Shown piece by piece: positions 10,339-29,507 of a stretch of 35,488 bases of DNA. The notes beneath the pieces were generated by a model. That model did not search any database. It saw only the letters and a program-made list of their open reading frames with translations, and was not told the origin of the DNA. The DNA comes from a virus: positions 1 through 35,488 of IMG/VR virus record IMGVR_UViG_3300047554_000238. One strand, 5' to 3'. Position numbers and translations under genes: made by a program. Numbering within the stretch: the stretch's first letter is position 1; each line of letters opens with the position of its first letter.

Positions 10339-11496
10339 ATGGCTACTCAAGAATATGCTGCTAGCATCCAGGGTGTGTCAATTCGTGTCACCCGCCTGGA
10401 CGCCGCTGGCAACCTACTAACTGGTGCTGGTGACTCATACACCACATCAGCCTTTATGCGTGTCTCGTTCACCCCTGAATATGAAGAGGGCGACGAAATC
10501 GTTGAAAAGGGCGCAAACGGTGTGATTTGTGTTTCCTACAAGGCACCAGACACACTAAAGCGCATCACCATGGAGCTCGCTATCTGTGAGCCAGACCCAG
10601 AGCTTTCGGCCCTACTTTCGGGTGGTCTACTGCTTCGCAAGGACATTTCGAACAGCGGCAACGCTAACGTTAAGTCTATTGGTTGGGCTGCTCCTGGCGT
10701 TGGTGACGACCCAGCTGGTAACGGTGTTGCCATTGAAGCTTGGTCGCACGCTGTATCGGGTGGAAAGCGTGCTTCGGTACTGCCTTACTTCCACTGGGTA
10801 TTCCCTTACGTCAAGATGCGTCAGTCGGGCGACCGCGTAATTGAAAACGGTATGCTAGCCAACACCTTCGAAGGTTACGGTCTAGGAAACGCTGGTTTCG
10901 GTTCGGGTATCGACGGCCGCTGGGAGTTCCCAGTTGCTGCAGAGCGTCCATACGCTTACGCACGTACCTCATGGGCTCCAACTGGTCTCTCGGGCTTCTA
11001 CACCTGGTCTGACAACTCGACCAACCAGGTCGTATTCTCGGCTAGCGGTTCTGGCACCAAGAACAAGACCACAATCACCATTGCTAACGTTGCTGCTAGC
11101 AACGCTGCAACCACTAATAACATCACTGTTGGCTTCTCGGCTGCTCCAGCTCTTGCAGCTGACGATGTTATCAAGGTTAGCGGTATTGGTGCAGAGTTCG
11201 ACGGTACAGTTACAGTCGTTTCGGCCACTGCAAACAGCATTACCTACACCTCGCCTTTGGCAGATGCATTCAGCAACGTTACAACCAACACTGCGTTGGT
11301 CACCAACACCACTGCTCGCATCCAGGTAATCAACTCGCAGACCGAGGTTCGCGTATCGCCAGTACCAGTTACAGCACTTACTGACACTGTAACTGGCGAA
11401 GCGTACAACGTTCCTGGCAACTTGCTATACAACGCTGACAACGCTATCGACAACATCATCATCGCTAACGAGACTGGTACAACCAGCGCTAACTAG
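10339..11496 (+). CDS. Probable major tail protein
   Basis: A 385-residue protein with AAGGAG before the ATG. The core (IRVTRLDAAGNLLTG, VSFTPEYEEGDEI, SYKAPDTLKRITMELAICE, YFHWVFPYVKMR) resembles a conserved actinophage virion protein that I associate with the tail tube. It is the best tail-tube candidate because no other gene between here and the tape measure fits. About residues 240-312 carry a beta module (LAADDVIKVSGIGAEFDGT) of the kind repeated in the tail-tip proteins, probably displayed on the tube surface. Ser TCG and Arg CGT codons are frequent, as in the capsid gene, consistent with an abundant structural protein. Alternative: head decoration protein. Confidence 0.6.
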   Translation: MATQEYAASIQGVSIRVTRLDAAGNLLTGAGDSYTTSAFMRVSFTPEYEEGDEIVEKGANGVICVSYKAPDTLKRITMELAICEPDPELSALLSGGLLLRKDISNSGNANVKSIGWAAPGVGDDPAGNGVAIEAWSHAVSGGKRASVLPYFHWVFPYVKMRQSGDRVIENGMLANTFEGYGLGNAGFGSGIDGRWEFPVAAERPYAYARTSWAPTGLSGFYTWSDNSTNQVVFSASGSGTKNKTTITIANVAASNAATTNNITVGFSAAPALAADDVIKVSGIGAEFDGTVTVVSATANSITYTSPLADAFSNVTTNTALVTNTTARIQVINSQTEVRVSPVPVTALTDTVTGEAYNVPGNLLYNADNAIDNIIIANETGTTSAN

Positions 11497-11512
11497 TGCA
11501 TGACAACTCAGT

Positions 11513-11546
11513 GGGCGGTGTATCCAGTAAAATGGATATACCGCCC
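11513..11546 (+). terminator. 14-bp hairpin between major tail protein and connector genes
   Basis: Bases 11513-11526 (GGGCGGTGTATCCA) pair with 11533-11546 (TGGATATACCGCCC) with a single G-T pair; the loop is GTAAAA. Only a broken T tract (GCTTAGTTT) follows, so it may be an inefficient terminator or an RNA end-protecting element that lowers expression of the connector genes. Confidence 0.7.
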
Positions 11547-11578
11547 GCTTAGTTTCATAAAGATAGAGAAGGATTGAA

Positions 11579-12688
11579 ATGGCAAATAATCTATGGATTC
11601 AGCCAGAAGACCTGGGCGAATACGCAAACACTGAGTTTGCCACAGAGGCCTGTGAGGTCGCTTCTTACCTTCTCTGGGCTATGTCTGGTCGTAAGTACAC
11701 TGGAATCACTACAGTAACCGAGCGTTACACCTGTGTTCTTCGCAATAACCGCATGGGTCCATCAACTAAGACCAACTCTCCAGTCCTTTTTGGTGGAGAC
11801 GTTTATAACATCCCGTCTGGTGACTATGACGAATACTCGGAACTCACAGCAGATGGCCTCTCCCCAGACGCACGTATTCGACTGCGTGGTCGCCCTGTTA
11901 CCAAAGTTATCGCTATGCGTAACAAGACTGGAAAGATTCTAGACCCTTCCAGCTACTACCTTGTAGACCACTCGACTATTCACGTTGTTGCTGGTACTCC
12001 TTGGACACCTTGTAATACAGAAATTACTTACGAGTATGGCACTCCAGTTCCAGTTGCTGGAAAAATGGCTGCTCGTACAATGGCTCTGGAGTTTGCAAAG
12101 CTCTGGGCTGGCGATGATGACTGTGCTCTTCCGCAGCGTATTACGTCAATCTCTCGCCAGGGTGTCTCCTACACAATCCTTGACAACCAAGAGTTCATCG
12201 ACGAACTTCGCACTGGTCTTTACGCAGTTGACTTGTTCCTCAAGACAGTCAACCCAGATAATGCTCGCCGCAAGGCTAAGGTCTTTACTCCTGACGTTCC
12301 TCGCGCCCGCCGCTACACAGCTAAGCCGCTTTACCTAACTGCTGACGCTGACTACGACCTAGTTATGACCAGAGACACCGCGGTCACTTGGTCATCTGAT
12401 GGTGTCGACGTTGACCTAACTGCTCTAGTTGATGAGTCTGGTTGGACACCTGTAGTTACACTACGTAACTACGGTTCAACTAAGTCTGTTGATTTGGACA
12501 CTGCTTCGATAACTGTAAACCAAACAACAGACATCGTAACATTCACCATCCCTTACTCTAAGGCTCAGACTGCACTTGGAATGGTTGACCCTGGAACTTG
12601 GACTCTATACGCCACTAAGACAATTGCTGGAGTAGAGACAGTCACTGAGCTTGCGACAGGCAACCTCAGTATCAAGATGTATGGTTAG
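11579..12688 (+). CDS. Head-to-tail connector (adaptor) protein with C-terminal beta domain
   Basis: A 369-residue protein. The N-terminal part (IQPEDLGEYANTEFATEACEVASYLLW) has the helical pattern of head-tail adaptor proteins of the HK97 gp6/SPP1 gp15 type, which dock onto the portal. The middle contains RLRGRPVTKVIAM and a stretch ending in ISRQGVSYTILD, as in other actinophage connectors. The last 100 or so residues (DLVMTRDTAVTWSSDG onwards) look like an added immunoglobulin-like beta sandwich, so the protein is longer than a minimal adaptor. GAAGGA precedes the ATG. It starts the connector gene group that follows. Confidence 0.7.
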   Translation: MANNLWIQPEDLGEYANTEFATEACEVASYLLWAMSGRKYTGITTVTERYTCVLRNNRMGPSTKTNSPVLFGGDVYNIPSGDYDEYSELTADGLSPDARIRLRGRPVTKVIAMRNKTGKILDPSSYYLVDHSTIHVVAGTPWTPCNTEITYEYGTPVPVAGKMAARTMALEFAKLWAGDDDCALPQRITSISRQGVSYTILDNQEFIDELRTGLYAVDLFLKTVNPDNARRKAKVFTPDVPRARRYTAKPLYLTADADYDLVMTRDTAVTWSSDGVDVDLTALVDESGWTPVVTLRNYGSTKSVDLDTASITVNQTTDIVTFTIPYSKAQTALGMVDPGTWTLYATKTIAGVETVTELATGNLSIKMYG

Positions 12689-12696
12689 GAGAGACC

Positions 12697-13200
12697 ATGG
12701 GTTATTTTGATTTGAACGGTGTTTCTGAAGAAGCACTTCCACTTAAAAATCTAATGGACGGAGTTCTCGAGCGCGTCGAGGCCGTCTACCAGTCATACAA
12801 CGTTCCACTACCAAACCGCCGTTACTGGATGATTGGTGACCCAGCTCTAGACTGTGAGCAGGTTGTAGTTGCGTTTGACCAACTCTACCTAGGCCCTCCA
12901 GGTGATGAGATTGCTCAGCCTAACCGTTGTAACGTTCCTCGCAGCGTAACTTTCCGTATTCTAATCTCGCGCGAGATTGCAGTTGTTGGTGTTAATGGAC
13001 GTCCACCTTCAGGCGACAAGATTCAGCAGACTTCTGTACTTCCTACTATCGACGCCTGGGTTCTAATGGAAACCGTGCGCGAGTTTGACATGTGGGATGA
13101 AACTGGCTATGGGCTAGGTGTTGTAGCTACCCTACAAATCCAGGGTCCAGAAGGTGGCTTCCAAACTGTAGGTCTTCAACTAACAATGGCGGTTCCATAA
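12697..13200 (+). CDS. Head-tail connector or tail terminator-like protein
   Basis: A 167-residue protein 8 bases after the adaptor gene, with TTAGGAGAG before the ATG. The sequence (LPNRRYWMIGDPALDCEQVVV, PRSVTFRILISREIAVVG) resembles a conserved actinophage connector-region protein. Its position between adaptor and gp10-like genes fits a tail terminator or stopper that caps the tail tube. The stop and next start overlap as TAATG, which implies translational coupling. The exact role is inferred from synteny. Confidence 0.6.
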   Translation: MGYFDLNGVSEEALPLKNLMDGVLERVEAVYQSYNVPLPNRRYWMIGDPALDCEQVVVAFDQLYLGPPGDEIAQPNRCNVPRSVTFRILISREIAVVGVNGRPPSGDKIQQTSVLPTIDAWVLMETVREFDMWDETGYGLGVVATLQIQGPEGGFQTVGLQLTMAVP

Positions 13201-13634
13201 TGGCTGTTTATCAATATCGCTACTCTAAGCTAGAAATTTATGATGTCAAGCTGAATGAATTTCTAAATACCAATAGGAGCACAGACACTAAAACCCTGTG
13301 GAAGTATTTAGAGATTGGTAGAAAATTAGCAGTAGATAAAGCTAGAGAGCAAGTTGGAGTTAAGACTGGCGCATTGCGGAAAAATATTAGCTCATACCAC
13401 CTAGGAAACTTTACTGGTCAGTACGTCGGTCTTCGTTCTACTTTGCCCTACTCTTACATCCACCACCAAGGCTCTAAAAAGCACATCATCGAGCCTAGAG
13501 GCACGAATCAACTTATCTTCCGTGGTCGTAGCGGAGTTATTGCAACTTACCATGTCAACCACCCTGGTACAAAGCCTAATAGATTCCTAAAAGACCAAAT
13601 GCGTGGATTTGGCAAGGTTCGTTTTGGCAGATGA
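13200..13634 (+). CDS. HK97 gp10-like tail completion protein
   Basis: A 144-residue protein with the gp10-family signature: basic helical N-terminus, VKTGALRKNIS, a central beta region (YVGLRSTLPYSYIHHQGSKKHII) and a C-terminal PNRFLKDQM helix. In this family the protein acts at the head-tail junction or in tail completion. The start overlaps the previous stop (TAATG). Codon use is AT-richer than its neighbours (AGA/AGG arginine, TTA leucine), unlike the capsid gene; this may reflect lower expression or a separate origin. Confidence 0.75.
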   Translation: MAVYQYRYSKLEIYDVKLNEFLNTNRSTDTKTLWKYLEIGRKLAVDKAREQVGVKTGALRKNISSYHLGNFTGQYVGLRSTLPYSYIHHQGSKKHIIEPRGTNQLIFRGRSGVIATYHVNHPGTKPNRFLKDQMRGFGKVRFGR

Positions 13635-13696
13635 GCCTAGGCCCTAACTAGGCATTTCCAGGTCATAGTACAATAGACCTAGGTGCAAACGCACCT
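13635..13696 (+). promoter_or_regulatory. Hairpin cluster ahead of the tail chaperone genes
   Basis: Three inverted repeats lie in the 97-base gap: GCCTAG/CTAGGC (13635-13640 with 13648-13653), AGGTC/GACCT (13660-13664 with 13676-13680) and AGGTGC/GCACCT with AAAC loop (13681-13686 with 13691-13696). A TACAAT at 13669-13674 resembles a -10 box but has no good -35 partner. The cluster may tune transcript levels or mark an RNA processing site between connector and chaperone genes. Confidence 0.45.
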
Positions 13697-13731
13697 TTCC
13701 ACGATGACTCTAAGAGAAAGATATCAACAAG

Positions 13732-14073
13732 ATGGCAAGATTTAAAGATTTTGGCAAAGGCAAAGACGACGGCAGTCAGTCTAGCGAACCCCTAAAATTT
13801 GCTCTTCACGGTGAAGAGTTCGAATGCTACCCACGCCTTCAGGGTAAGACCCTACTACAGTTCGTTGAGCAAGCAAATGCTGACGACGCTGCATCGTCGG
13901 CACGTGTTACCCGTACCTTCTTTGAAAAGGTTATGAGCAAGGAAACTTACGAGCGTTTTGACGCTATGCTCGAGGACCCAGAAAAGATTGTAACCGTTGA
14001 AGCATTAGGTGAAATCATTGGTTGGCTGCTAGAGGAGTACAGCAGCCGCCCAAATCAGCAGCCAGAGGTTTAG
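13732..14073 (+). CDS. Tail assembly chaperone, short form (gpG-like)
   Basis: A 113-residue acidic protein directly before the tape measure region, in the position and with the size of lambda gpG-type chaperones. The sequence (LKFALHGEEFECYPRLQGKTLLQFVEQ, VTRTFFEKVMSKETYERFDAML) matches the actinophage chaperone pattern. It keeps the tape measure protein soluble and recruits tail tube subunits. Most ribosomes should end at the TAG at 14071-14073; a fraction should shift at 14049-14055 to make the longer form. AGAGAAAG precedes the ATG. Confidence 0.85.
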   Translation: MARFKDFGKGKDDGSQSSEPLKFALHGEEFECYPRLQGKTLLQFVEQANADDAASSARVTRTFFEKVMSKETYERFDAMLEDPEKIVTVEALGEIIGWLLEEYSSRPNQQPEV

Positions 14074-14465
14074 CACTCTGGGCGGTTGACCTCTGGCCGT
14101 ATGTAAATGGAAAGGCATTAGTAAATGGCATCAAACTATTGGAGATGGAAGTCTCCGACATGCTCGATGTCATTCACTATTTCTATGAAGATGACCTCAA
14201 CTATCCCTCAGTCGAGGCCGCTCAGATGGCAGAAGCTAGAAGGATTACGGTTTTCAAGCAGCTATATAACGAAGACTATAGATATGCTTCTAAATCTACT
14301 ACCAGTAGGACTGCAAACTCTTTTGCTGGTCAGTATGACTTCGACGACCCAGTGCCTTTCGACCCAACCAATGCTCCAACCAAGCCGTACATCCCGCCGA
14401 CAGAAATGGACGCAGATGCTATGGACCCATTCGGTGGCGTGTTAGACGCGCCAGTCAACTACTAG
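13732..14465 (+). CDS. Tail assembly chaperone, frameshifted long form (gpGT-like)
   Basis: Predicted product of a -1 ribosomal frameshift: codons 13732-14055 (108 residues, ending SRPN) continue in the -1 frame from base 14055 (SAARGLALWAVDLWPY) to the TAG at 14463-14465, giving 244 residues. The extension is helical and then acidic and Pro-rich (DPVPFDPTNAPTKPYIPP). It has no start of its own with a ribosome binding site at a sensible place, as expected for a T-type extension. Fusion proteins of this kind are known in most siphoviruses and act in tape measure-directed tail assembly. Confidence 0.85.
14049..14097 (+). promoter_or_regulatory. Programmed -1 frameshift signal
   Basis: The slippery heptamer C CCA AAT (CCCAAAT, 14049-14055) has exactly the X XXY YYZ form in the chaperone frame. 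After 5 bases, GCCAGAGGT (14061-14069) pairs perfectly with ACCTCTGGC (14089-14097), a 9-bp stem with a 19-base loop. The short-form stop TAG lies in the loop. Frame direction (-1), spacing and the continuing open frame all agree. Confidence 0.88.
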
Positions 14466-14472
14466 AAACCAG

Positions 14473-14483
14473 TAAGGAGGTGA
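14473..14483 (+). promoter_or_regulatory. Full-length ribosome binding site of the tape measure gene
   Basis: TAAGGAGGTGA is complementary over all 11 bases to the consensus 3' end of 16S rRNA and lies 4 bases before the ATG at 14488. It is the strongest such site in the window. Confidence 0.8.
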
Positions 14484-14487
14484 GAAT

Positions 14488-17400: not shown

Positions 17401-18168
17401 GGTCTAGTTCAAACTTTGGTAGACGGCGGTAAGGCTGCAATTGACCAATATACTGAAGTAACTTCAGCAACTGATAAGGCTAAAGCAGCTGCAGAAAACT
17501 ACGCTCGTGCCTATGGAGATACTAGAGCCGCTGAGAATATTATCAACAAACTGGCTTCAGTTGGTGGAGCAGTTGGTTCGTCTTATAAATCTAAACTTGC
17601 TGGCTTACTCAATAAAGGTGCTGGAGCATTCGAAATTGCTGCTGCATTTAATATCTCCGAGGAGTCTTTGCTAGCTGAACAGCAGCGTATTGACTCTGGT
17701 GTAGACCTGGCTAAGAACGTAGACATTACAGCATCCTGGAATAAAGACAGTCTTAATGACGCTAAAAAAGAACTTGATGAGGCCCTAGGTGTTCAGGAAT
17801 GGGTAATTAGTAATAAAAAGAAAGGCGGCGATAAAGACGGTGGCCTTAAGATTGTTAGACGGGCCACTGGTGGTTTCGTTGGGCATTTTGCTGACGGCTA
17901 TAGCGGTCGCGTTTCTGGTCCTGGAACTGCTCGCTCAGACCAAATTCCTGCCATGATTTCTAACGGTGAGTTTGTTATGAACGCCCGTGCCACTGCTGCT
18001 AACCTTGACCTTCTCAATGCCATGAACAGCAATAAGAATGTTTCGGGAATGGTCGGCAACCAGGTCGGTATCACCATCAATGCCGCACCTGGTATGGACC
18101 CAACTCAAATTGCCAAGGCAGTTGCCGCTGAACTAGACAACCAGCTATCTAGAGGTTCCTCAATCTAA
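14488..18168 (+). CDS. Tape measure protein
   Basis: A 1226-residue protein, by far the longest helical protein here, placed immediately after the chaperones. It has an N-terminal hydrophobic Ala/Gly-rich region (about 75-135), a coiled-coil section (about 150-235; LREEMQQLAFAAEEAA), a membrane-like segment at about 688-712 (WPLTLIVLAIAAVIAAVVLLV) and a C-terminal GGFVGHFADGYSGRVSGPGT segment typical of actinophage tape measures. It sets tail length and is ejected into the cell envelope. At about 0.15 nm per residue, the family rule predicts a tail near 180 nm. Its TAA overlaps the next ATG (TAATG). No lysozyme or peptidase domain is obvious. Confidence 0.92.
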   Translation: MAVVGHAEIIVRAITKGVKDDIKRGFDSVQKDAETAGKNVGKSFNTGVGNAMGGRGGIGKFSKESEELARAFHKGIRSSYKLQAGIGALAQSAMAAGGGILALAGNMAGAAASGIALVGVMAQLKVATLVGKQAFHGIMAAVKQSDKASGEAGKTLRELREEMQQLAFAAEEAALGEEGAAMKLEKAREALSRVQNLPPDNRARREAELAYKQADLAYRQAKDKAADLQEQIANPPKKKDKAGDDPYKDLTETQKKFAIYLKSVMPKMKELREAAASSFLPELTTQMKIMFKGGFFQMLVKGFGEVSKGLAKATRGFTGTLFDPQSKSNMAEFFKNSSTTVGTLGGVLGKAFGGFLTLMRAIQPLISTFTSFLNSKADSFAKNMQGNFANIGGFFRQAGDAAAGWGKILGRIFEKFKEMIKANIGPGTGGQLLLDFFNRGTTGFKNLDGAAGEFARKQHFLAAATNLRAMLDSVGKIFGFMSDLGTDPAIAGFWGILAELEGPLSEIFESITGSSDELAKMLVAIVEIVAAFADSEQLNAYMSVLTSVLQYIASIVRTLQPLMKLFGPLIGTLGAVVTSILLIKKATMILYGSVLILKSAVTAIKVAMLGYRAVTAASAAANAGWLLTEKGATKATMLRGKELLVANIRTAMSAAAKGADAAGNVAVGATAAAATPAVTAFGVAVNSAIWPLTLIVLAIAAVIAAVVLLVSWFNQMKADNVKKASKEINKSFDDTKGKVIGAADAQKQWSAALLSVRDDQKSGIKSIQDMGKALDMNSQYVKGNKNITVSQALAYMDAKEAMDTYMTNLGKLAKKNLPEAQRQFRNMIVSSGMSRDATEKAVLANKDMIKSLEKQAKAMGDTIMNADGTVNAMKAVDYAIGEGSFLRQKAILEQKKFAETYANATKSFINSEDAMQKATEKGKFSLKTYLTEMGNQSKALLNWTSNISKLQGLMTDKKALQSIVAQGSAGAGLVQTLVDGGKAAIDQYTEVTSATDKAKAAAENYARAYGDTRAAENIINKLASVGGAVGSSYKSKLAGLLNKGAGAFEIAAAFNISEESLLAEQQRIDSGVDLAKNVDITASWNKDSLNDAKKELDEALGVQEWVISNKKKGGDKDGGLKIVRRATGGFVGHFADGYSGRVSGPGTARSDQIPAMISNGEFVMNARATAANLDLLNAMNSNKNVSGMVGNQVGITINAAPGMDPTQIAKAVAAELDNQLSRGSSI

Positions 18169-20513
18169 TGACTAACAAACTTTTCAATACTAGCTTCTCC
18201 GTCAATACTGACGGTTGGAATGCTCGCAATAATGCAACCATTGCTCGCACTACCGAAGACACCTATCTCGGTCGTGGAGCCGTTGAGGTTATACTAAGCG
18301 ACTCAACGGCTGAGAGTGGAGTCTACAATCTAAGCGCTAAAGTTGGATATGTTAAGGGTTCGCAGATAATCTTTTCAGCATATGTGAAAGTCCCAGATGG
18401 CTCTCCTAATGTAACGCTTAAGCCAGCTATGTATTTTTACAACTCGTCAGGAACATATCTTTCGGGCACGGTTGTATCTGGGGCAGACTATGACATTTCC
18501 AGCTCCGACGGCTGGGTCAGGATTTTTGTGGTCGGGTTCAGCAATAGCTCTTCGGCTGTATCCGTTAGCGTCGCTATACAGGCCTCTTCTTCTTACACTT
18601 ACGTTTCTGATGCTAAGTTTTTGGCTGATGCTTTCATGCTTGAAGATGGCGGAGTTCTTACTGCCTATACTGAAGGTCAAATCCCTCAGGATTACAAGAA
18701 CAAAGCTACAAACCTAGGCTTAACGAAGCTACCTCAGCCTCACCTGACTGGTATGAAGTTGAATGCGGATGTCCGCATCAATGGACTTACGCTCAATACA
18801 ATCGACGAGAACGATATCGTTTGGGTTTGCACGGACATCCAGAACTGGTGGAACCTGCCTGGCATCGAAACTCCAGACATTGCTCGTGGTCTCGATGATG
18901 GCTCTTACGATGTCCGCGGCCGTCGAACTGCACGAAACATCACGCTTGCTGGTTCAATCCTTGTACCAGACCCAGCGTTGGCTCCTGCAGCTCGTCAAAA
19001 ACTTTTGGAAGCAGTAGACCTTGTCTACACTGGTGGCTGGCTGTTTGTAGATGAATCGCCAACCAAAGCCGCATACGTGCGTCTAGTCGGGCAGCCCACA
19101 ATTGACTCGGTGACCCCTCGTGGTCGTATCAACTTCTCCGTCCCCCTCCGTGCTGGTGACCCAATCAAGTACAGCTGGGAAGAGTCTAACAACGATGGCT
19201 ATACTGCCATTGGCATGTCTAATCTTCTGACTAACCCTAGCTTTGAAGGAGGGTCTACTACAAAATGGGCTTCTGGCTCTGGCTCGTCATCAGCAACAGC
19301 TTCGCTAGATTACGCCTACGACGGCACTTACTCCTACAAAGTCACCTCTAACGGAACTTCGGCTAACTTTGGAGCGTACATTACTGGCGGCAACCGAGTT
19401 AGTGTTGACGGCGGGGATACCTACACTTTTTCTATGTATGTTCGTGATGGCAACACTGCCGTAACTTACCAGGCTCAGGGTGTTTGGTACGATGCTAATG
19501 GAGACACTATTGGAAGCGGTGCTAGAGGTACTGCTACCGCGGTATCCAACAGTGCTTGGACTCGTGTTTCTATGATTGCTAAAGCTCCCGAAGATGCCGT
19601 GAGCGTTCAGCCAATTCTTTATGCAACTACACCTCCAGCGAACGGAACTATCGCCTATTTCGACGCTGCCGAACTCCGTAAAGATACCGAACTATCTACG
19701 GACTATATCGGAAACAATGCTTCCAACTTGAACATTGTCAATGACGGTAACGCTGAAGTTGCTGCTATCTACAAGCTGACTGGACCGATTACTGCGCCTG
19801 CCTACATCGTATCTAACAATGCTGCTGGGCTTACTCAGACGTTAACTATTCTGACTAATCTGCGAGACAACACATACTCTGAGAGCATCACAGCCAGCGA
19901 ATTTACTGCTGGAATTGCAACTATAACCACCTCTGCCGCCCACAGCTTCCTGGTTGGCGATGTAATTACAGTGAATGCGTCTAACAACTACTACGATGCA
20001 ACCAGCGTTACTATTACTGCGGTAACGGACACCTCGATAAGCTACGCTAATCCGACAGCAAACATTACTAGCATTACGCACAACTCAAACTTGGGTACAG
20101 TTACTGCAACGGCTCATGGCTATTCTGCTGGAGACACGTTCTACATTAGCGGCTCCAGTAACCCTGTATTTGATGGTGCCTACACAGTCGTGACTAACGT
20201 CAGTGCAAATGTGTTTACCTTCACTAAGACTGCTGCCAACCAGACCACTGGCTATGGTGGAAAGATTTCTCGTCAAATCACGTACTCGGACCTGACTACG
20301 GGAACAGTTACCCTGGCTCAGACTGACACCTTAGAGATTGACACATACAACAAGACTGTTCTCTATCGTGACCTACCTGATAGCTCGCGTTCAACCCTGG
20401 CTGTGAACGTTGACTGGATTAAGTTGTACCCAGGTAACAACATTCACACGTTCTCTACTACAGGCGGCACTGGAGACGCTGAGGTCAAATACCGCTCTGG
20501 CTGGATAGGGTAG
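18168..20513 (+). CDS. Distal tail (Dit-like) protein with two carbohydrate-binding-like domains
   Basis: A 781-residue protein. Residues about 185-345 and the C-terminal end (VKYRSGWIG, preceded by LYPGNNIHTFS) resemble the distal tail protein that forms the ring between tail tube and hub. Residues 1-165 (KLFNTSFSVNTDGW) and about 351-515 (LLTNPSFEGGSTTKW) look like CBM4/9-type beta jelly rolls, presumed to bind host cell-wall glycans. Two short beta modules (HSFLVGDVITVNA, HGYSAGDTFYISG) sit at about 575-700. It is about three times longer than minimal Dit proteins because of these insertions. Translation is coupled to the tape measure gene by TAATG. Confidence 0.75.
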   Translation: MTNKLFNTSFSVNTDGWNARNNATIARTTEDTYLGRGAVEVILSDSTAESGVYNLSAKVGYVKGSQIIFSAYVKVPDGSPNVTLKPAMYFYNSSGTYLSGTVVSGADYDISSSDGWVRIFVVGFSNSSSAVSVSVAIQASSSYTYVSDAKFLADAFMLEDGGVLTAYTEGQIPQDYKNKATNLGLTKLPQPHLTGMKLNADVRINGLTLNTIDENDIVWVCTDIQNWWNLPGIETPDIARGLDDGSYDVRGRRTARNITLAGSILVPDPALAPAARQKLLEAVDLVYTGGWLFVDESPTKAAYVRLVGQPTIDSVTPRGRINFSVPLRAGDPIKYSWEESNNDGYTAIGMSNLLTNPSFEGGSTTKWASGSGSSSATASLDYAYDGTYSYKVTSNGTSANFGAYITGGNRVSVDGGDTYTFSMYVRDGNTAVTYQAQGVWYDANGDTIGSGARGTATAVSNSAWTRVSMIAKAPEDAVSVQPILYATTPPANGTIAYFDAAELRKDTELSTDYIGNNASNLNIVNDGNAEVAAIYKLTGPITAPAYIVSNNAAGLTQTLTILTNLRDNTYSESITASEFTAGIATITTSAAHSFLVGDVITVNASNNYYDATSVTITAVTDTSISYANPTANITSITHNSNLGTVTATAHGYSAGDTFYISGSSNPVFDGAYTVVTNVSANVFTFTKTAANQTTGYGGKISRQITYSDLTTGTVTLAQTDTLEIDTYNKTVLYRDLPDSSRSTLAVNVDWIKLYPGNNIHTFSTTGGTGDAEVKYRSGWIG

Positions 20514-20550
20514 AATAGTCTTATAAAGACGATTCGACGTGAGGATGTAA

Positions 20551-23500
20551 ATGCCAGACGGCCTTCTACCAGTAACTAGCGCAGCTGCCCCGCGCTATCG
20601 CTACTACACGGTAAACATTGTCACCAATACTGTTATTGGTGAAATTCCGTTTGAAGACGTTAGCTTTACCCGTTCGATTAAAACTGCTGGCCCTTTCGAG
20701 GGAAAAATAACCATCTCCGAGCAGACTAATAATCTGGACCTCTACAACTCGACCATGCCTGGTAAGACGGCTATCTATGTTGTTCGTGATGACCAGGCGG
20801 TGTGGGGTGGGATTATCTGGGGCCGCACGTATGATTTGCAAGGTCGAAGCCTGGCTATCTCTGCCAGTGAGTTCACTAGCTACTTCGGTCGTCGACTTAT
20901 TTGGAAGAGCTACTCAAACAGCTTTAGCTCGCAATTGATAAAGCGTTCTAAAGATGGATACGTTCTGGTAACCCTACAGAACAACACTCTTAAAGAAGCA
21001 CTCCCTGTGACGGATAGTGCTAACAACCCGACTTATGTGTCAGTTAACTTTGTTGACAGTGCTCTGCGTAAGTACAGCGGATTTTACCCTCTAGTGGGTA
21101 AGGACTCGGCTCCTGCCGCTCCTGCCAACCCTGGCTTAACTGCTTTCTATGTAGATATTCCTAACCTGCCGCCGCTAAGTACTGGCGTCTACGATGGCGT
21201 TGGAATCACTATCAACTCTGACACGTATGCTTATTTGCGTGACCTGCTTGAGGCTACCCTAAGCGACTTCATCAGCATTCAGTTTCCTAATGAGGTCATT
21301 ACTCCAGGTATTAAAGTTCCGTATCGAATTGCAACTAAGCAACTTACTATTGCAAACTCGGTTTACGGAACAGCCACTCTCACGACTTCTGACGTACATG
21401 ACCTAACTGTTGGACAGCGCGTCGAGGTAGTCAACGTTGATGCTATGTTGGACGGCCAGCACATTATCACCGAGGTTCCAAACAAGTTTTCGTTCAAGTA
21501 TGTTCTAGATAACCCAATTAGCCGTAGCGACTATGTTAGCCCTATCTACCTGGACAGCAGCCTAAGCACTGCCACCGATGTGGACAATGTCATAGACAAG
21601 GTTAAATATCGAGAAGTCATTCAGTTCTTGCCTCAATATGTTAAGCGTCTATCTCGTTCGTCAGGTCTTGTGACAGTAACCTTCAACTCGGTTCACAACT
21701 TTAAAAAAGGTAACAAGGTAATTGTTAACTTCGAGAAGAGCAAAGCCACTATCTTCAAAATCAAGGTAGAAAAGAAAAATGCTAAGGGTGCGGTGACTTC
21801 CAGCAAGATTGAGGAAGTAAACACTTTTGACTACACCAAGTACAACAACACTGTGACAGTTGAATCAGCGACTCCAACAACAATCACATACCTAGACCCA
21901 AATCCAGACTACGCTGACTCTAAATACGACAGAACCGCAAGCACTGTTACCATTAATAAAAACTCGGTCAAACTAGCAACTGAACTACCTCTGCTAAGAA
22001 TTTATCCAGAAAACTCATCTGGCTACAACATCGGTGACGACATCAGAGTTGATGGTGTAGATGAAGCTGGCTGGGGCTACCCAATCTATGACGGCTACCA
22101 CAAAGTCTATGACGTTGACCCAGGCACTGCGCTAAGCATCGACAAATACAAGGTCGAGTCTGAATATATAAATGAAGACGAAAGCGACACTAGCTACTTA
22201 GGAACGGTGGCCTATCTCTACACTGTAACTGACCCCGCATTCGAAGGTGGAGACTGGATTACTGTTAGTGGGTTCACCTCTGGCCCAGCGAAACTGAATG
22301 GTAGGTATCAGGTACTTGTCGATTCTTATTATGAGCCTAGCCTAAGCCGTTATGTCATTAAGTATGTAAAGCCATACTCTACTGTTTCTCTAACGAACGT
22401 TACTGGTGTGTCCGTTATCAAGACTGGAGCTTCCTGGCTCGTCTATCAACCAGCAACAAGTGAGACAAGGTATTCTCTCAAATCTGAACCAGACTCTTCT
22501 ACTGCTATTTCTGGTCTGTACTACACTCCTGCAAAGGGTAAAACAAAAAATAAGGTCACTATCACCACTAAGACTCGACATGGCTTAGCTGTAGGTAGTA
22601 CCGTTGACATTTTCTTTAGCTTGGAGAGCAAGGACGACAAGACTCAGAAGATTTATGGCGGCCGTGTTACTGTCACTTCGGTTGGCGATGTTGATGAGTT
22701 CAGCTATACCCTAGTCAAAGGCAAGCACCCTGAGGCAGCTCCTAAAGACCCTACCAACGGAACTTTAGCAAAAAAGGGTACAGTAAACAGAATAAAGCAC
22801 TCTGTACTAAATCCTCCGCACATTTCAGTCCCTATCGAAGGTCTTAGAGCGGAGTCTATTCAAAACGGTGGTTCCCTAGTTACCATCTACTCCCCAGACC
22901 ACGACTTAAGCGTTAACGATTATGTCTCGGTGTCGGTAGACGACAAGACGTATAGTGCCTACAGCACTACAAAAACTCCTGTAAAGGTGAAGCAAGTAGC
23001 TGAAAACTACTTTAGATATGAGTCTGGTGCTCCAACAATTGCAGGAGACGTGGCTTCTGTAACTGGTATTAAGTATCTAGAAAATGGGTCAAAGATTCGT
23101 CTTTTGATTAACGAGTTTGGAACATATAGCTCAGTAAGTACCACTGCGTCTTCCATGACTTTTAGCCCTGACACGGGTCACATAACATTTACTACGCCAT
23201 CGGCTCATGGGTTGGTAGTTGGTCGTAAAGTTAAAATCTCTGGATTCCCCGACCCAGTCACTCAGAGTGTGTCTGGAACAACTACTTCTAAGACTATCTC
23301 CACTAGCAGTGTCATTAGCTATAACTCTTCTAGTAAGACTGTGTTTATTCGATTCAGCACTGAACACGGGCTGAGTGAGCTTGAAGACATTGATGGAGCC
23401 ACGCTAACTATTGCTGGAGCTAATCAGGCGGCATCATTCCCTGCTGGAACACCAAACTTTGGTGGGGTTTCGTTGTCTTGGTTGAATGCGACTCACACCA

Positions 23501-25797
23501 TCACCGAGATTCCAGACAAGTATTCGGTTGGCATCAAATACTTAGGCGGCTCGACAGACTGGACTGTCTATGTTAATAGCTACGGTCTTGGCTCGCCTAC
23601 GACCGTGGATGTCACTTCCGCTACTAAACCTGCCATGTTTGTCCCTGCCTCTGACTATTCTAAGTTCAACTTCACTGCTGACGTTGTTCAGGTTCCGAGC
23701 ACTACGAAGATTGTATTCAACTACCCAGACTCGGCTGATGATAACTTTACTGGCACTGTTACCATGGCTTCGTTAGGTATTACTGTAAACGTAGTTGCCC
23801 CTGCTCAGCGGGGGTCTGGTGCCGAGCAATTGGAAGCGAATGACTTTATAAGACTATCTGGCTTTACAGATGTCGGTACAGATTTATATTCAAAGCTGAA
23901 TGGTGACGGGTATAAGGTTGTTTCAGTGGCCTCTGCAGGAGCGACCTCAAATTACATCACAATCATCAACCCACTGAGGTCTGGTGGTAAGCCAGTAGCT
24001 TACTCCAACAGAACCCTATCTGGAACTCCAGCCGCAACTAGAGGATACGATGTTGGAGGTAGCGTTGTTGTTTCCAACACTCAGGGGTACGCTGGTGTAG
24101 ATAAGAACGCTTACAGCATCGAGCGAGTTCAGATGGGAGCAGTGGTAAGCACTACTGGAACTATCGGAACTGTGACAACTTCTGGTGGCTATTATGTTGC
24201 CACGATTACTTCGATGTCTAGTACCACTGGACTGTCGGTAGGTGAGGTTATAACAGCTACTGCTGGAACTGGAAATGTTGGTTCTGGAACGATGACGGTA
24301 GTTTCGATTAATAGCTCTACGTCAATTAGTGTAAAGTCAACTACAACATTTACTGCTGGCTCAATTACAAACCTAAGAGGCCTAGCTGCCACAGTTACGC
24401 TTACTGGTACTCACGACATGCTTGTGGGTGAGTACGCCAACATCCGAGTGTTCAATGATGATTTTGACGCCTTCAGTCAAAATAACAGAGATGTGACTCT
24501 AATAGACGTAACTTCTAGCACAGTCAAGTACAACGTTAGAAAATCTACTGACATTGAATATGTCTCCTTTGCAGCTGGGAAAGCTACTGTCTACTTTGTT
24601 GAAGGGGCAGACGGCTCCCACGGCTACAACGTTGGTGATACTGTAACTATTGCCAGCGTCCCTAGCCCATACACTGGATTCAACGCTACTGGCGTGACTA
24701 TTGTCGCTGTTGGTCCTACCAGCATTACATACGATGATGCTTCCTATACTTCTAAGATTACTAAAACCGCTGTCTCGGCTGGAACAGTCACAAGAACGGC
24801 TGTAGTAGCAATCGATTCTAATGTTGGTGGTGTACTTACTAAAGTTCCAACTATTACAAAAATTCCAGCAGTATTTGCCAGAACCTATGGTGAGTTCCCT
24901 GGCAACGCTAATGTTGGTGGAATCACGCTCTCTACTCAGGAGTACAGCAACAAAAACATGGAGAACTCTCCACTATACGGAAGTAGGCTACAAAGCCTGT
25001 CTGAAGTTCTGGAAGCCTACTCCAACACAAAGAGCGGTTTTGACTATCGAGTAGATGTTGCACTGGAATATGACGCTAACGGAAACAAGGTGTTTACAAG
25101 AACTTTTGTTCTCAAGCCAATTGTTCCGCAGAGCCTTACTGACTACCTAGCTACTCTTCCAGACGGAAAACTTGCTAGAGGTCAGGTAGCCACGCCTAAT
25201 GCTTTTGGTGCAGATAAGGTTGTCTTTGAGTACCCAGGCAATATCTCGAACGTGAGCCTGGCCGAGAAAGCAGAAAACGCGGCAACTCGTGTGTTTGTTA
25301 GCGGTAATAGCTCTGGCGCTGGTGCTGGAGCTGAAGCACCTTACTCGGCAGCAGCGGCTACTGACCTACTTGCCGACAACTGGCCTCTTCTTGATAAGAA
25401 AGAATCAGTAAAGTGGCCTAGCGGCACTTCCAATGAAGAAACCACTAACACCTCTCAGACGGACGAGTGGGGTAATCACGACGATGAAACTGACTACCAC
25501 GCCAGTGCTGTTAGATTCCTAAGTGAGTTCAGACCGCCTGCTGGTGATTTTGTGATTGACGTAAACGGTTCCTTGACTCCAGTAATTGGCTCATATAACC
25601 CAGGCGACTGGTGCAGTATCATTATTAATGACAACTTTGTTAAGACGCGTCTGAACAGCGTACTTGAGCCAAGAAAAGACGTAATCGTGAGAAAGATTGA
25701 TGCCATTAGGGTAGATGTACCTAATAACCCAGCATTCCCTGAGAAAATCAGCCTCACTCTAGTTGCAGACTGGGAGGTAGACGCAGTTGGCAAGTAG
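20551..25797 (+). CDS. Giant tail hub (Tal/gp37-like) protein with a long beta-module array
   Basis: A 1748-residue protein. The N-terminal 165 or so residues (PFEDVSFTRSIKTAGPFEG, AVWGGIIWGRTYDLQGRSL) match the start of actinophage hub proteins. The C-terminus from about 1460 (SLSEVLEAYSNTKSGFDYRV, then YNPGDWCSIIIND and DAIRVDVPNNP) matches the end of the same family, sometimes named Gp37-like. Between about 265 and 1440 the fold is interrupted by about twelve short beta modules (HGL-x-VG-type motifs). The hub closes the tail tube and contacts the cell surface. Usual relatives are several hundred residues long, so about two thirds of this protein is insertion. GTGAGGATG precedes the ATG. 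Confidence 0.78.
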   Translation: MPDGLLPVTSAAAPRYRYYTVNIVTNTVIGEIPFEDVSFTRSIKTAGPFEGKITISEQTNNLDLYNSTMPGKTAIYVVRDDQAVWGGIIWGRTYDLQGRSLAISASEFTSYFGRRLIWKSYSNSFSSQLIKRSKDGYVLVTLQNNTLKEALPVTDSANNPTYVSVNFVDSALRKYSGFYPLVGKDSAPAAPANPGLTAFYVDIPNLPPLSTGVYDGVGITINSDTYAYLRDLLEATLSDFISIQFPNEVITPGIKVPYRIATKQLTIANSVYGTATLTTSDVHDLTVGQRVEVVNVDAMLDGQHIITEVPNKFSFKYVLDNPISRSDYVSPIYLDSSLSTATDVDNVIDKVKYREVIQFLPQYVKRLSRSSGLVTVTFNSVHNFKKGNKVIVNFEKSKATIFKIKVEKKNAKGAVTSSKIEEVNTFDYTKYNNTVTVESATPTTITYLDPNPDYADSKYDRTASTVTINKNSVKLATELPLLRIYPENSSGYNIGDDIRVDGVDEAGWGYPIYDGYHKVYDVDPGTALSIDKYKVESEYINEDESDTSYLGTVAYLYTVTDPAFEGGDWITVSGFTSGPAKLNGRYQVLVDSYYEPSLSRYVIKYVKPYSTVSLTNVTGVSVIKTGASWLVYQPATSETRYSLKSEPDSSTAISGLYYTPAKGKTKNKVTITTKTRHGLAVGSTVDIFFSLESKDDKTQKIYGGRVTVTSVGDVDEFSYTLVKGKHPEAAPKDPTNGTLAKKGTVNRIKHSVLNPPHISVPIEGLRAESIQNGGSLVTIYSPDHDLSVNDYVSVSVDDKTYSAYSTTKTPVKVKQVAENYFRYESGAPTIAGDVASVTGIKYLENGSKIRLLINEFGTYSSVSTTASSMTFSPDTGHITFTTPSAHGLVVGRKVKISGFPDPVTQSVSGTTTSKTISTSSVISYNSSSKTVFIRFSTEHGLSELEDIDGATLTIAGANQAASFPAGTPNFGGVSLSWLNATHTITEIPDKYSVGIKYLGGSTDWTVYVNSYGLGSPTTVDVTSATKPAMFVPASDYSKFNFTADVVQVPSTTKIVFNYPDSADDNFTGTVTMASLGITVNVVAPAQRGSGAEQLEANDFIRLSGFTDVGTDLYSKLNGDGYKVVSVASAGATSNYITIINPLRSGGKPVAYSNRTLSGTPAATRGYDVGGSVVVSNTQGYAGVDKNAYSIERVQMGAVVSTTGTIGTVTTSGGYYVATITSMSSTTGLSVGEVITATAGTGNVGSGTMTVVSINSSTSISVKSTTTFTAGSITNLRGLAATVTLTGTHDMLVGEYANIRVFNDDFDAFSQNNRDVTLIDVTSSTVKYNVRKSTDIEYVSFAAGKATVYFVEGADGSHGYNVGDTVTIASVPSPYTGFNATGVTIVAVGPTSITYDDASYTSKITKTAVSAGTVTRTAVVAIDSNVGGVLTKVPTITKIPAVFARTYGEFPGNANVGGITLSTQEYSNKNMENSPLYGSRLQSLSEVLEAYSNTKSGFDYRVDVALEYDANGNKVFTRTFVLKPIVPQSLTDYLATLPDGKLARGQVATPNAFGADKVVFEYPGNISNVSLAEKAENAATRVFVSGNSSGAGAGAEAPYSAAAATDLLADNWPLLDKKESVKWPSGTSNEETTNTSQTDEWGNHDDETDYHASAVRFLSEFRPPAGDFVIDVNGSLTPVIGSYNPGDWCSIIINDNFVKTRLNSVLEPRKDVIVRKIDAIRVDVPNNPAFPEKISLTLVADWEVDAVGK
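21356..24760 (+). repeat. About twelve divergent beta modules within the hub gene
   Basis: Modules of about 50-70 residues share the pattern [T/S]-x-H-[G/D/N]-[L/F]-x-[V]-G-x-x-V-x-[I/V], then Y/F-x-V-x-x-V and a closing strand. Approximate anchors: HDLTVGQ 21398, HNFKKGN 21697, GYNIGDD 22021, WITVSGF 22256, HGLAVGS 22579, HDLSVND 22900, HGLVVGR 23206, HGLSELE 23366, NDFIRLSG 23839, GLSVGEV 24231, HDMLVGE 24413, GYNVGDT 24622. Similar repeats in phage tail proteins are sometimes matched to the E1 FCCH-type barrel. Copies are divergent in DNA. Confidence 0.7.
25772..25778 (+). promoter_or_regulatory. Ribosome binding site that fixes a TTG start
   Basis: GGGAGGT lies 8 bases before the TTG at 25787, inside the end of the hub gene. 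The first ATG (25802) is 23 bases from it and has no site of its own, so TTG is preferred. Confidence 0.75.
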
Positions 25798-28700
25798 AAG
25801 AATGAATAGGACCAAGAATTTTGGGTCCTACCTAAATGCACTGAACTCCCAGGTCTCTGATGTAGCCGCACGTAATGAAATCACTAGCATCAGTGCTGGT
25901 GCGATTACTGGCGATTCTCTAGCCGAGAACGTAACACTATTTGGAAGTGCGATTCAGAGCAGCGACTATGTGTCTGGTTCTACTGGTTGGAAGATTGACG
26001 GAACTGGTGTAGCTGAATTTGCTGACGTCTATGTTCGCGGCGATATCAACGCTGAAACTGGAACCATCGGCTATTGGAACATTAGCTCTCCTGGTGTAAC
26101 TCGCACAATTGGCGACCGAGTCTTGTTTGGTACGTTCCTTGAGAGCAACGATTTCGGTCAAAGAGACGATGAAATTACCGAAGGTGTCTACGTTGGCCTA
26201 TTCAAGTCTTATTTTGAAGATGCCTCCCCTGTAACTTCTAGAACTCGAACTAGCAACCTAGCAACAATTCTTATTAAGAACAACGCTTATCAGCCAGGCG
26301 ATAGGGTTTTTGTCACAATAAACGAAGATACTTCGTTTAACAACGGCGGTCTACCTGTAACCGTAATTGCCAGTACAAGCGAATCAATCACTTACTACAA
26401 TGTTGGCTCTGACTTCCCTACCTACGATGTAAACGGTATCCCTGCGTCTACAGTCACTACTGGTGAAGCCGTTCTTTACAATCCAGATGTCGCTGGTCTT
26501 TACATTAGGGATTATGGGAAGACAGCTCTAGATTACGGCTACTTCTCAAACCAGGGTGTGGCATATGTAAGTGCTAGCCGCGTTAACCTAGTCCACAACC
26601 CGAGCTTTGAATACAACCAGCTCGCCAATGTCACGGCAATCTCTGGCTCTGGGTCTGTTGTTACATATACTGCTAGCAACTCGTTTATGGCTGGACAGAC
26701 TGTAACAATCACAGACTCTGACGTCGAAGCTTACAACTTGACTAACGTAGTCATTGCTAGTGCTAACTCTACGCACTTCACTGTAAGCAGTACTGCAACT
26801 GGCACTGGCAACACCGTAGCAAATGCCGTATCTCTAGCTGCTAGCAATTCAGCTTGGAAGTTTGGAAACACTGCCAGCAACACTACAATCTCTACCTTCC
26901 GTTACAGTAACCTAGGCAATCAACTCCTAACTACAAGTACGTTTGCTGGATATGGCTCTTGGTCTGCGACTGCACCATCAGCAGCTAGGTATTTCCGAGG
27001 AACAATCAACTACTCCAAGGGCGTTGACTACAACGTATTTGACTTGGATAAAGTACTTTACCTAAGCTACGATACTCACTTCAATGTCACTCCGTACTAT
27101 GCCGAGTATTCGTCTATCTCGGCTACTTCCTCAAACTGCACCATCACGACAAATGCTGCTCACGGGTTTAGCGTTGGAGATATTGTAGTTATAGACTTTT
27201 CTCTCATTGATTTGTCTGGGCAAGGCGCTGAATTTGTTGGCAATACTTCTGACCCATCGCTTTGGTACACTAGTGCAAACTACAACATCGCGGCCGTTGA
27301 AGTTCTAGCTAAAACAAACACTACATTTACTTATGCTAATCCAGCTGCAAATGCAATCTCTGGAACCGTTGTCCCGACGGCAAACGATGGTCGAGACCTA
27401 CGAATCTATAAAATTCCTTATGGTGCGGTTGACCTAAGTCAAATTACTTTTGAATACAGCAATGGGCAAGCGACCGTTGTGGCAAACGTTGTCACAGATA
27501 TGACTACAGCTTCGTGGACATCCAACCAAAATAAGTACCTCTCTCTTGACCCAATCAATTACTTCCTTCAATACATCTCACCTACTGAAGGTTTATCTCC
27601 TCTTCAGCCTGTAGGGTCAGTCCCATTGATGGTGGACTCCAACAAACTTAGATTAGATTACAGTACCAAGGATGCAGCTGGCTATGCCGCTAAAAATAAC
27701 ATAACCCTGAACCTACCTTGGGTGGTCTATGCTCAGAGACAGAATGCGGCAGCAAATGTCTATACATCCACTACTGCCTTCCAGATGACTTCTGTAGTGG
27801 CTGTTAGTGCTATTTCTGGCAACGGAACTACAGTCACGTATACAGCGAGCAACAACTTTGCTGTTGGTGACCGAGTAACTATTACTGGAGCTACAACTTC
27901 TGCTTATAACCTGAGCAACGTTGCTGTAGCTAGCGTTATTGGTACAGCACCTAACTACACTGGTTTTACTGTAACAAACTCGGCCACGGGTACTACATCT
28001 ACAGCTACTGCTACTGGCTATAAAGGTGTTACTACTTTCATTGATGCTGTCTCTCTATCAACCGAGCCTATCCCTTTCTTCGGCGATAGCTCGGATGACT
28101 ATTCGTGGGAAGACCCTACGCTAAACAGTACTGACCAGATTTCTCTGCAAGATACTAAAAAGTGGTTGGACATTAATCTTGATGACCAGACTGGCTCTAT
28201 ATCCAATCTGGATTACCTAGGATTTAAGCAAAGTAGGCTCAGTGTGCCTATGCTAACTCAGCCTAAAATCAGCACGACAACTGACTACAGTTCTGATATC
28301 GGTTCTTTCCACTCACCGCACTACGATTACGAGAATCTCGAGATAAGTAGTGGAGCTGTCTCTACTATCAATCTAGATGGAACGTATTACAACACCTTTG
28401 AGTCAAAAATCAACTTGTCTTCTTCTAGGGTGAAATCTGCTTCCCAGATAATTTCTACCTATGATGACGGCAACGGTGGCACTAACTCGGCCTCAATAAC
28501 TGCTGTAGCGGATGTGACCAACACCTCTAAGATTGACTTAAGGGCAGACACTGTAAATTTCTATGGTGATGCCAAAGTAGATATGAATAGCGGGCTGTAT
28601 GCCACGTTTATCTATAGCAATGATGCCCTTCTTCCAATCTCTTTTCAAAATAACGTCTCGACATACGCTGACTTAAGTGTTGGAGGGGTGTTTACCGCAG

Positions 28701-29374
28701 AATCTACTGCAGATTTTCAGGACTATGCAACATTCACTGCAACCACTCCTACATACTCTACAACTGACTCGGCAAATACTGGTGTATTCATCTCTAATAG
28801 CAACTTCATTGCGGTCCAAAGAGATAGTGCAACACCGCTGTTCATACATCGTCAAACCAATGACGGAACTCTGATTGACTTTAGAAGAGCTACTGCATCT
28901 GTAGGTAGTATTTCTGTGTCTTCTGGTACAGTCTCCTACAACGCCTTCATGGGTTCGCACTATACGGAACTGGAGAACCTAGCCACTAGCAACATACTTC
29001 GTGGAACCGTAGTCGAGTCGTTAAATGAGCTTGTTTCTGAAATATACTTTGAGCAAGAGCGTCTTCCGAAAGTTAAAATCTCCGACACTGTTAGCAGCAC
29101 AAAGGTTTACGGAGTATATGTAGCCGCTGACGTTGATGAGGATACTGAGAACGGATGCTATGTAGCCGCTCTTGGAGCGTCGTGGGTTCGTGTGGCGTCT
29201 GGTGTTACTGTGTCTAGAGGAGACTTGCTTGACTCTAACGGCGATGGCTGTGCCAAGGTTCAGTCTGATGATGTGATTCGTTCGTCTACTATCGGAAAGG
29301 TCACTTCGGCTACGCCAATTGAGACCTACGAAGATGGTTCTTACCTAGTACCTTGCGTACTGTATTGTGGGTAG
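25787..29374 (+). CDS. Tail fibre or receptor-binding-like protein
   Basis: A 1195-residue protein starting at TTG (strong ribosome binding site) and overlapping the hub gene by 11 bases. The N-terminal part (GWKIDGTGVAEFADVYVRGDI) is the common attachment segment of phage fibres. From about residue 267 (LVHNPSFEYNQL) a carbohydrate-binding-like domain starts, interrupted by short beta modules at about 281-345, 438-525 and 672-750; a further module lies at about 160-225. The C-terminal 160 residues (SVGSISVSSGTVSYNAF, GVTVSRGDLLDSNGDG, SSTIGKVTSA) resemble the chaperone-type or G2-peptidase-like ends of fibres and may self-cleave. Presumed to recognise host surface glycans. Confidence 0.7.
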   Translation: MASRRMNRTKNFGSYLNALNSQVSDVAARNEITSISAGAITGDSLAENVTLFGSAIQSSDYVSGSTGWKIDGTGVAEFADVYVRGDINAETGTIGYWNISSPGVTRTIGDRVLFGTFLESNDFGQRDDEITEGVYVGLFKSYFEDASPVTSRTRTSNLATILIKNNAYQPGDRVFVTINEDTSFNNGGLPVTVIASTSESITYYNVGSDFPTYDVNGIPASTVTTGEAVLYNPDVAGLYIRDYGKTALDYGYFSNQGVAYVSASRVNLVHNPSFEYNQLANVTAISGSGSVVTYTASNSFMAGQTVTITDSDVEAYNLTNVVIASANSTHFTVSSTATGTGNTVANAVSLAASNSAWKFGNTASNTTISTFRYSNLGNQLLTTSTFAGYGSWSATAPSAARYFRGTINYSKGVDYNVFDLDKVLYLSYDTHFNVTPYYAEYSSISATSSNCTITTNAAHGFSVGDIVVIDFSLIDLSGQGAEFVGNTSDPSLWYTSANYNIAAVEVLAKTNTTFTYANPAANAISGTVVPTANDGRDLRIYKIPYGAVDLSQITFEYSNGQATVVANVVTDMTTASWTSNQNKYLSLDPINYFLQYISPTEGLSPLQPVGSVPLMVDSNKLRLDYSTKDAAGYAAKNNITLNLPWVVYAQRQNAAANVYTSTTAFQMTSVVAVSAISGNGTTVTYTASNNFAVGDRVTITGATTSAYNLSNVAVASVIGTAPNYTGFTVTNSATGTTSTATATGYKGVTTFIDAVSLSTEPIPFFGDSSDDYSWEDPTLNSTDQISLQDTKKWLDINLDDQTGSISNLDYLGFKQSRLSVPMLTQPKISTTTDYSSDIGSFHSPHYDYENLEISSGAVSTINLDGTYYNTFESKINLSSSRVKSASQIISTYDDGNGGTNSASITAVADVTNTSKIDLRADTVNFYGDAKVDMNSGLYATFIYSNDALLPISFQNNVSTYADLSVGGVFTAESTADFQDYATFTATTPTYSTTDSANTGVFISNSNFIAVQRDSATPLFIHRQTNDGTLIDFRRATASVGSISVSSGTVSYNAFMGSHYTELENLATSNILRGTVVESLNELVSEIYFEQERLPKVKISDTVSSTKVYGVYVAADVDEDTENGCYVAALGASWVRVASGVTVSRGDLLDSNGDGCAKVQSDDVIRSSTIGKVTSATPIETYEDGSYLVPCVLYCG

Positions 29375-29375
29375 T

Positions 29376-29507
29376 ATGTACAAGATTATGAAATCCGTAG
29401 ACGCTGATGGTAACGAGATTTACCAGGTATTCAACAACATCAGCAAACGCCTTGTTGGCACATACGCAACTTACGAAGAAGCCAGGAAATCAATCCTCGG
29501 TAAATAG
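29376..29507 (+). CDS. Putative 43-residue protein at the end of the tail operon
   Basis: An ATG 1 base after the fibre stop (TAGTATG) opens 43 codons ending at TAG 29505-29507. The product (MYKIMKSVDADGNEIYQVF, then ISKRLVGTYATYEEARKSI) is well balanced and looks like a real small beta-alpha protein. No strong ribosome binding site is seen; coupling to the fibre gene is likely. Its last 18 bases overlap the 3' end of the opposite-strand WhiB gene. Function unknown. Confidence 0.65.
   Translation: MYKIMKSVDADGNEIYQVFNNISKRLVGTYATYEEARKSILGK

Follow-up and report, generated by a model that had tools for sequence, protein, structure and literature searches.

The virus record IMGVR_UViG_3300047554_000238, a 35,488-base stretch analysed here in full (the window), raises the question of whether a short beta module that recurs in several of its tail genes is one domain family spread among them, and what such a family would do for the virion. 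The genes follow the order capsid protein, gp9430, major tail protein, adaptor, chaperones, tape measure, distal tail protein (Dit), hub and fibre, followed by WhiB and replication genes on the opposite strand. The same order is found in the Microbacterium phages Pumpernickel, A3Wally, Cece and Zooman and in the lake phage DSL-LC01, and the phages carrying the module form a group of actinobacterial siphophages. Megablast of the region matched no phage record. Relatives were retrieved using the hub alignment as the query (80 IMG/VR loci), and the module census covered 85 related loci. The assignments of the major tail protein, Dit, hub and tip of the window are each backed by PHROG or Pfam family matches. 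Elsewhere in the window, a WhiB-like regulator is encoded at 29490-30041 on the minus strand, a trait shared with the related Microbacterium phages, and a 1056-aa protein at 960-4130 carries a LysM domain and several tandem KPSSDERRDSLKP-like repeats. In the major capsid protein (7400-9352), the N-terminal part is long, acidic and rich in repeats (EVPAEEAPVEE...) and may be a scaffolding region. The ORFs at the tail-assembly-chaperone position (13732-14465) overlap or adjoin one another and are possibly joined by a programmed frameshift.

The module is about 45-60 aa long, has four core strands and follows the motif H-G-x-x-x-G-D-x-V ... F-(N/D)-G-x-x-x-V-x-x-V-x-x-x-T-F-x-Y. To avoid circularity, we seeded a profile only with modules of the Microbacterium phages and DSL-LC01, iterated it on loci excluding the window, and ran it against the 18 window proteins. 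The results showed 16 firm modules (at least 10 bits), one in the major tail protein, two in Dit, nine in the hub and four in the fibre, and three weak hub segments that reached 5-8 bits with at least one of the models, which brings the total to about 19 modules. None of the other 14 window proteins had a match above 3 bits with this profile. No match of 8 bits or more was found in 800 block-shuffled copies (200 per protein), and the shuffled background at 5 bits or more was about 0.02 per hub. The first-pass annotation had counted about 19 copies (1, 2, about 12 and 4) and had proposed such a profile search; with seeds from other phages, the search recovered exactly the four proteins it had named, at positions agreeing with its own to within a few tens of bases. 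The copy in the major tail protein lacks the H-G-L of the pattern it described and was recognised by the remaining profile. Profiles made for the gene classes (hub, Dit, major tail protein, fibre and adaptor) matched one another with 96.5-99.5% probability over 44-49 columns, while control slices from the cores of these proteins reached 9% at most; because the modules had been gathered with a joint profile, this test is supportive, not independent. Judged at the sequence level, the roughly 19 segments of the window belong to one family of small, predicted beta-barrel domains, as had been supposed. The only DNA repeats in the window region were short, low-identity, chance-like pairs, so that the repetition exists at the protein level only and the window duplications are old.

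The major tail protein gene (10339-11496, plus strand, 385 aa; phrog_792, 7.7e-21 over aa 7-180) encodes an N-terminal tube core and, closer to the C-terminus, its module at aa 263-304 (11125-11250, plus strand; independent profile E 2e-10). Dit (18168-20513, plus strand, 781 aa) is of the evolved type, since matches to phrog_5577 (3.9e-15), the SPP1_Dit C-domain (4.7e-6, above cut-off) and Pfam CBM_4_9 (4.8e-13, above cut-off) correspond to Dit N- and C-domains with an inserted carbohydrate-binding domain. This CBM_4_9-type domain occupies aa 351-484 (19218-19619, plus strand), and CBM_4_9 matches two stretches of the protein. The N-terminal 180 aa (18168-18700), kept in some relatives and missing in others, may be a second CBM_4_9-like domain. 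The two Dit modules follow at aa 584-627 (19917-20048; profile E 1e-11) and aa 644-686 (20097-20225; profile E 6e-9, End_beta_barrel 0.012), both on the plus strand. As in evolved Dits generally, a carbohydrate-binding insertion separates the N- and C-terminal Dit domains; in the window protein it holds CBM_4_9 together with the modules, and so differs from the known type by a second, non-CBM module family that is common to other genes. The fibre-like tail-tip protein (25787-29374, plus strand, 1195 aa; Phage_Tail_Tip 3.6e-5, above cut-off) carries four modules on the plus strand, at aa 165-203 (26279-26395; 14.6 bits), aa 292-332 (26660-26782; 14.3 bits), aa 452-517 (27140-27337; profile E 1.2e-6) and aa 682-718 (27830-27940; 10.5 bits).

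Most of the modules lie in the tail hub (20551-25797, plus strand, 1748 aa), which was assigned by phrog_1885 (2e-18), alignments and fold search. Aligning short and long hubs divided it into a conserved N-core (aa 1 to about 260), a C-core (aa 1437-1748) and the module array between them, all of whose members are on the plus strand. The array begins with modules 1 (aa 274-317, 21370-21501; profile E 6e-13, strands in the model), 2 (aa 374-447 with a hairpin insert, 21670-21891; 14.7 bits, pLDDT about 85-90), 3 (aa 491-524, 22021-22122; 19.3 bits) and 4 (aa 553-588, 22207-22314; 16.1 bits), and continues with modules 5 (aa 669-720, 22555-22710; profile E 3e-8), 6 (aa 777-823, 22879-23019; 19.7 bits) and 7 (aa 879-917, 23185-23301; 17.0 bits). 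Two weak modules follow, 8 (aa 931-992, 23341-23526; 5.4-7.7 bits) and 9 (aa 1091-1128, 23821-23934; 4.8-6.1 bits, strands in the model). Module 10, the third weak one (aa 1215-1262; scored at 6.8 bits by the first model alone), lies inside an insertion of about 75 aa (aa about 1195-1277, 24133-24381, plus strand; low pLDDT) that is specific to the window, being absent from 13 aligned long hubs; a PHROG search with this insertion returned no family. Modules 11 (aa 1280-1327, 24388-24531; 17.8 bits) and 12 (aa 1355-1394, 24613-24732; profile E 6.5e-7, E1_FCCH 0.0012) close the array.

The modelled short hub, from locus L035 (655 aa, pLDDT 72.7), had as its best solved relatives in Foldseek the T5 pb3, Mu gp44, 80alpha, VgrG-type and lambda tip hubs; after these came the phi92 and K1F endosialidases and UBA1/UBA6. 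The model suggests that the hub core is of the ordinary gp27/pb3 type, with the array between its two halves. A model of the window array (hub aa 241-1440) showed a string of units, mostly four-stranded and many at pLDDT 80-90, and was poor over the weak modules and the window-only insertion; its top solved matches were endosialidases, with E1 lower, and were weak for so long a query. The first-pass annotation had allowed that the segments might be unrelated folds or integral parts of the hub core; for the array neither was found, as it lies between the conserved halves of a gp27/pb3-like core, and some relatives' hubs hold merely 2-3 modules. The profile search also found an extra, degenerate member in short hub homologues (aa about 131-176), within their conserved part, which gave no score in the window hub. 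This member seems to be built into the hub core, and the family may therefore have begun as a hub-core element.

To place the fold, we compared 69 diverse modules with Pfam. E1_FCCH (PF16190) weakly matched 19 of them (best E 1.6e-4), staying below its gathering threshold of 29.5 bits (window best 19.3 bits), and End_beta_barrel (PF12195) matched 10 (best E 3.5e-5), below its threshold of 35 bits (15.6-18.3 bits in the cases shown). In Foldseek, UBA1/UBA6 matched the L035 short hub with a probability of 1.0 but an E of 3e-3 to 1e-2, and the window array with a probability of at most 0.72; the phi92/K1F endosialidases matched the short hub with a probability of up to 0.98 and an E of 1.5e-3. 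The structure models are moderate (pLDDT 72), and because the Foldseek output came without aligned query residues, the E1 and endosialidase matches were assigned to modules by sequence. The resemblance to E1 FCCH-type barrels named at first pass was supported by these weak sequence matches and by the UBA1/UBA6 matches in Foldseek. The module profile also matched phi92 endosialidase 4hiz at aa 198-246 (E 5e-4), remotely and with the HGLKVGDAV motif in common. Matches to TAL effector PDB entries (E down to 1e-9) were rejected because they are the sum of numerous minute 'AHGL' hits worth 2-3 bits apiece.

These comparisons suggest that the module is a distant relative of both the phi92/K1F endosialidase beta-barrel and the E1 FCCH barrel, the kinship being remote, and the nearer phage relative is the endosialidase barrel rather than E1 FCCH. 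End_beta_barrel has the HGL-x-VGD motif and probably the barrel in common with the module and also sits on phage adhesive proteins, but there it is part of an enzyme, the phi92/K1F endosialidase tailspikes, whereas the module forms arrays in tail proteins. E1_FCCH, the first catalytic cysteine half-domain of UBA1/UBA6, resembles the module weakly in sequence and fold, but is a eukaryotic enzyme domain without phage context or glycan function. Within 1v0e, the profile match presumably covers about residues 443-488, counting the chain from 246, and would take in S460 and S468. These two residues are named in PMC12632334, according to which K1F has three sites for polysialic acid, the beta-barrel among them, and this barrel is a host-discrimination hotspot whose loops tell hosts apart.

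The known kind to which the module is closest in habit is that of the promiscuous Ig-like virion domains, from which it differs by its non-Ig fold. No Ig-family match (Ig-like, FN3 or Big) rose above cut-off; two of the 69 modules touched Big_11, at E 0.012 at best, and the solved structures best matching the window array were endosialidase and E1 chains, not Ig. In the account of Fraser 2006 given in PMC8718954, the Ig-like domains are likewise small, optional beta domains on major tail and exposed proteins, outward-facing and with proposed weak carbohydrate binding, a role described there for phage tails as unverified. The module, by contrast, is not Ig by Pfam, occurs in many copies per protein and spans hub, Dit, major tail protein, fibre, adaptor and capsid-proximal protein in one phage group. 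We found no paper describing it on phages in the part of the literature searched.

The comparison with related phages, which had been suggested for copy-number variation, revealed wide differences. Over the 85 loci, copies per gene ranged from 2 to 11 in the hub, 0 to 11 in Dit, 0 to 3 in the major tail protein, 1 to 4 in the fibre and 0 to 1 in the adaptor, where 18 of 62 ORFs had one module; gp9430 had a module in a few relatives. The remaining census matches all fell either in tail-tip genes near or beyond the hub or in a truncated major tail protein. No module was found in 74 tape-measure ORFs (85,757 aa) or in the ten capsid-protein ORFs searched. In relatives, the module therefore ranges more widely than the four tail genes, over at least six virion genes, and among the PHROGs containing it are major tail proteins, tail fibres and virion structural proteins. 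A tblastn search of the phage collection with the consensus module found Microbacterium phages and one unannotated record only, a narrow range that reflects the limit of a short query, not the true range. In DSL-LC01, whose tail genes have few modules, a 2,853-aa ORF (L092:2225-10783, minus strand) adjoining collagen-like genes carries 12 modules; it is annotated as 'ALK tyrosine kinase receptor' and is likely a misannotated accessory adhesin or fibre locus.

Insertion could be seen directly in gp9430 (9430-10305), a phrog_779 protein of unassigned function between the capsid protein and the major tail protein, whose C-terminal part reads like a putative capsid-type fold. In the window and in L088 and L089, alignment and module search showed GSGYxGxGP, about 12 residues and then KWIYATG, an empty site between P217 and K230 (10081-10116, plus strand); in L087 (the genome of L006, the closest hub relative), L090, L038 and L043, a module of about 70-90 aa occupies precisely that site. 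This suggests that the insertion loop is exposed. L056 has a Dit module and a fibre module that are 72% identical over 54 aa (about 75% at the DNA level) and cluster with a neighbouring Dit module with a clade support of 97, so movement between genes is real. On the module tree we counted 58 gene-label changes, a number inflated by the short alignment, against 151 with shuffled labels. The well-supported mixed-gene clades were only five and small; the first window fibre module and an L025 hub module grouped together (support 90). The tree suggests that inheritance within a gene is the rule for the modules and that they have crossed between genes repeatedly. A general test of whether modules of other genes in the same genome are nearest gave about random results (mean rank 0.46, with a strict BLAST cut-off limiting), so recent within-genome transfer is evident only in single cases such as L056. 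Taken together, the census, the tree and the filled and empty sites mark the family as optional and movable between virion proteins, and the duplication and transfer between genes proposed at first pass agree with these sites, the L056 pair, the supported mixed-gene clades and the window-only hub insertion.

The modules are homologous, have spread, change in copy number and are restricted to a set of virion genes. We propose, with a probability of about 0.6, that a barrel family copied within and between virion genes of an actinobacterial siphophage group is displayed on outward surfaces, namely tail tube, Dit, hub and fibre and, in relatives, the adaptor and the capsid-proximal protein. In the hub, it would form an expandable array between the halves of the gp27/pb3-type core. 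Many copies would bind the glycans of the host surface in a multivalent, weak and easily re-evolved manner; with this grip, and with the CBM_4_9 domains that the same Dit carries, the phage could hold on and get to its receptor. The sticky coat or receptor-binding array suggested at first pass is likewise plausible. We infer the outward display from the gene distribution and by analogy; the tape measure lies inside the tail tube, and its lack of modules fits such display. Host-glycan adhesion is plausibly the most likely use, because the K1F barrel binds polysialic acid and the same window Dit carries CBM_4_9. Against it speak the remoteness of the endosialidase kinship and the E1 FCCH domain, whose similar fold has no glycan role.

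The modules could instead be structural accessories (spacers, clamps or stiffeners) that stabilise tail and tip and bind no glycan, a reading we consider less likely. Most of the conserved residues (H, G, F and aliphatics) appear to serve the fold, the analysis identified no conserved ligand site, and core-type conservation is all that the consensus shows; the hub modules also stand in series between the core halves, and the lambda gpV C-domain is partly such an accessory, its Ig domain making intra-ring contacts (PMC8718954). A required part would, however, hardly vary so freely (hub 2 versus 11, major tail protein 0 versus 3) or leave empty gp9430 sites. The same variation, with insertions at permissive places such as the gp9430 loop and the C-terminal part of the major tail protein, would also fit near-neutral proliferation, in which self-contained barrels are tolerated at surface loops or termini and drift by recombination with no specific benefit; yet long open-frame hub and Dit arrays recur in many lineages, and DSL-LC01 has an entire separate array gene, which makes this improbable. 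Convergence of simple beta-strand patterns, conceivable for short, Thr/Val-rich sequences, is very improbable given that 0 of 800 block shuffles reached 8 bits, that profile-profile probabilities were 96-99% versus at most 9% for other segments of these proteins, and that close cross-gene pairs (71-72% identity over 49-54 aa) imply common descent.

Under the proposed glycan-adhesion reading, a wider and more tentative possibility is that one non-Ig barrel serves as a general, interchangeable adhesion unit for the whole virion, on the capsid-proximal protein, the neck and tube, Dit, hub and fibre as well as in a stand-alone array gene. Recombination would shuffle it between genes, and adhesion could then be retuned while the core machinery stays untouched. 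Among the mobile decoration domains of phages, the Ig-like ones have been the textbook case; here a different fold would do what they do, at a larger scale within one lineage. The filled and empty sites make the question of the module's role directly testable, and kinship with a glycan-binding tailspike barrel points to a concrete ligand class. The module family would also aid the annotation of phage proteins that are labelled after ubiquitin-activating enzymes or kinase receptors.
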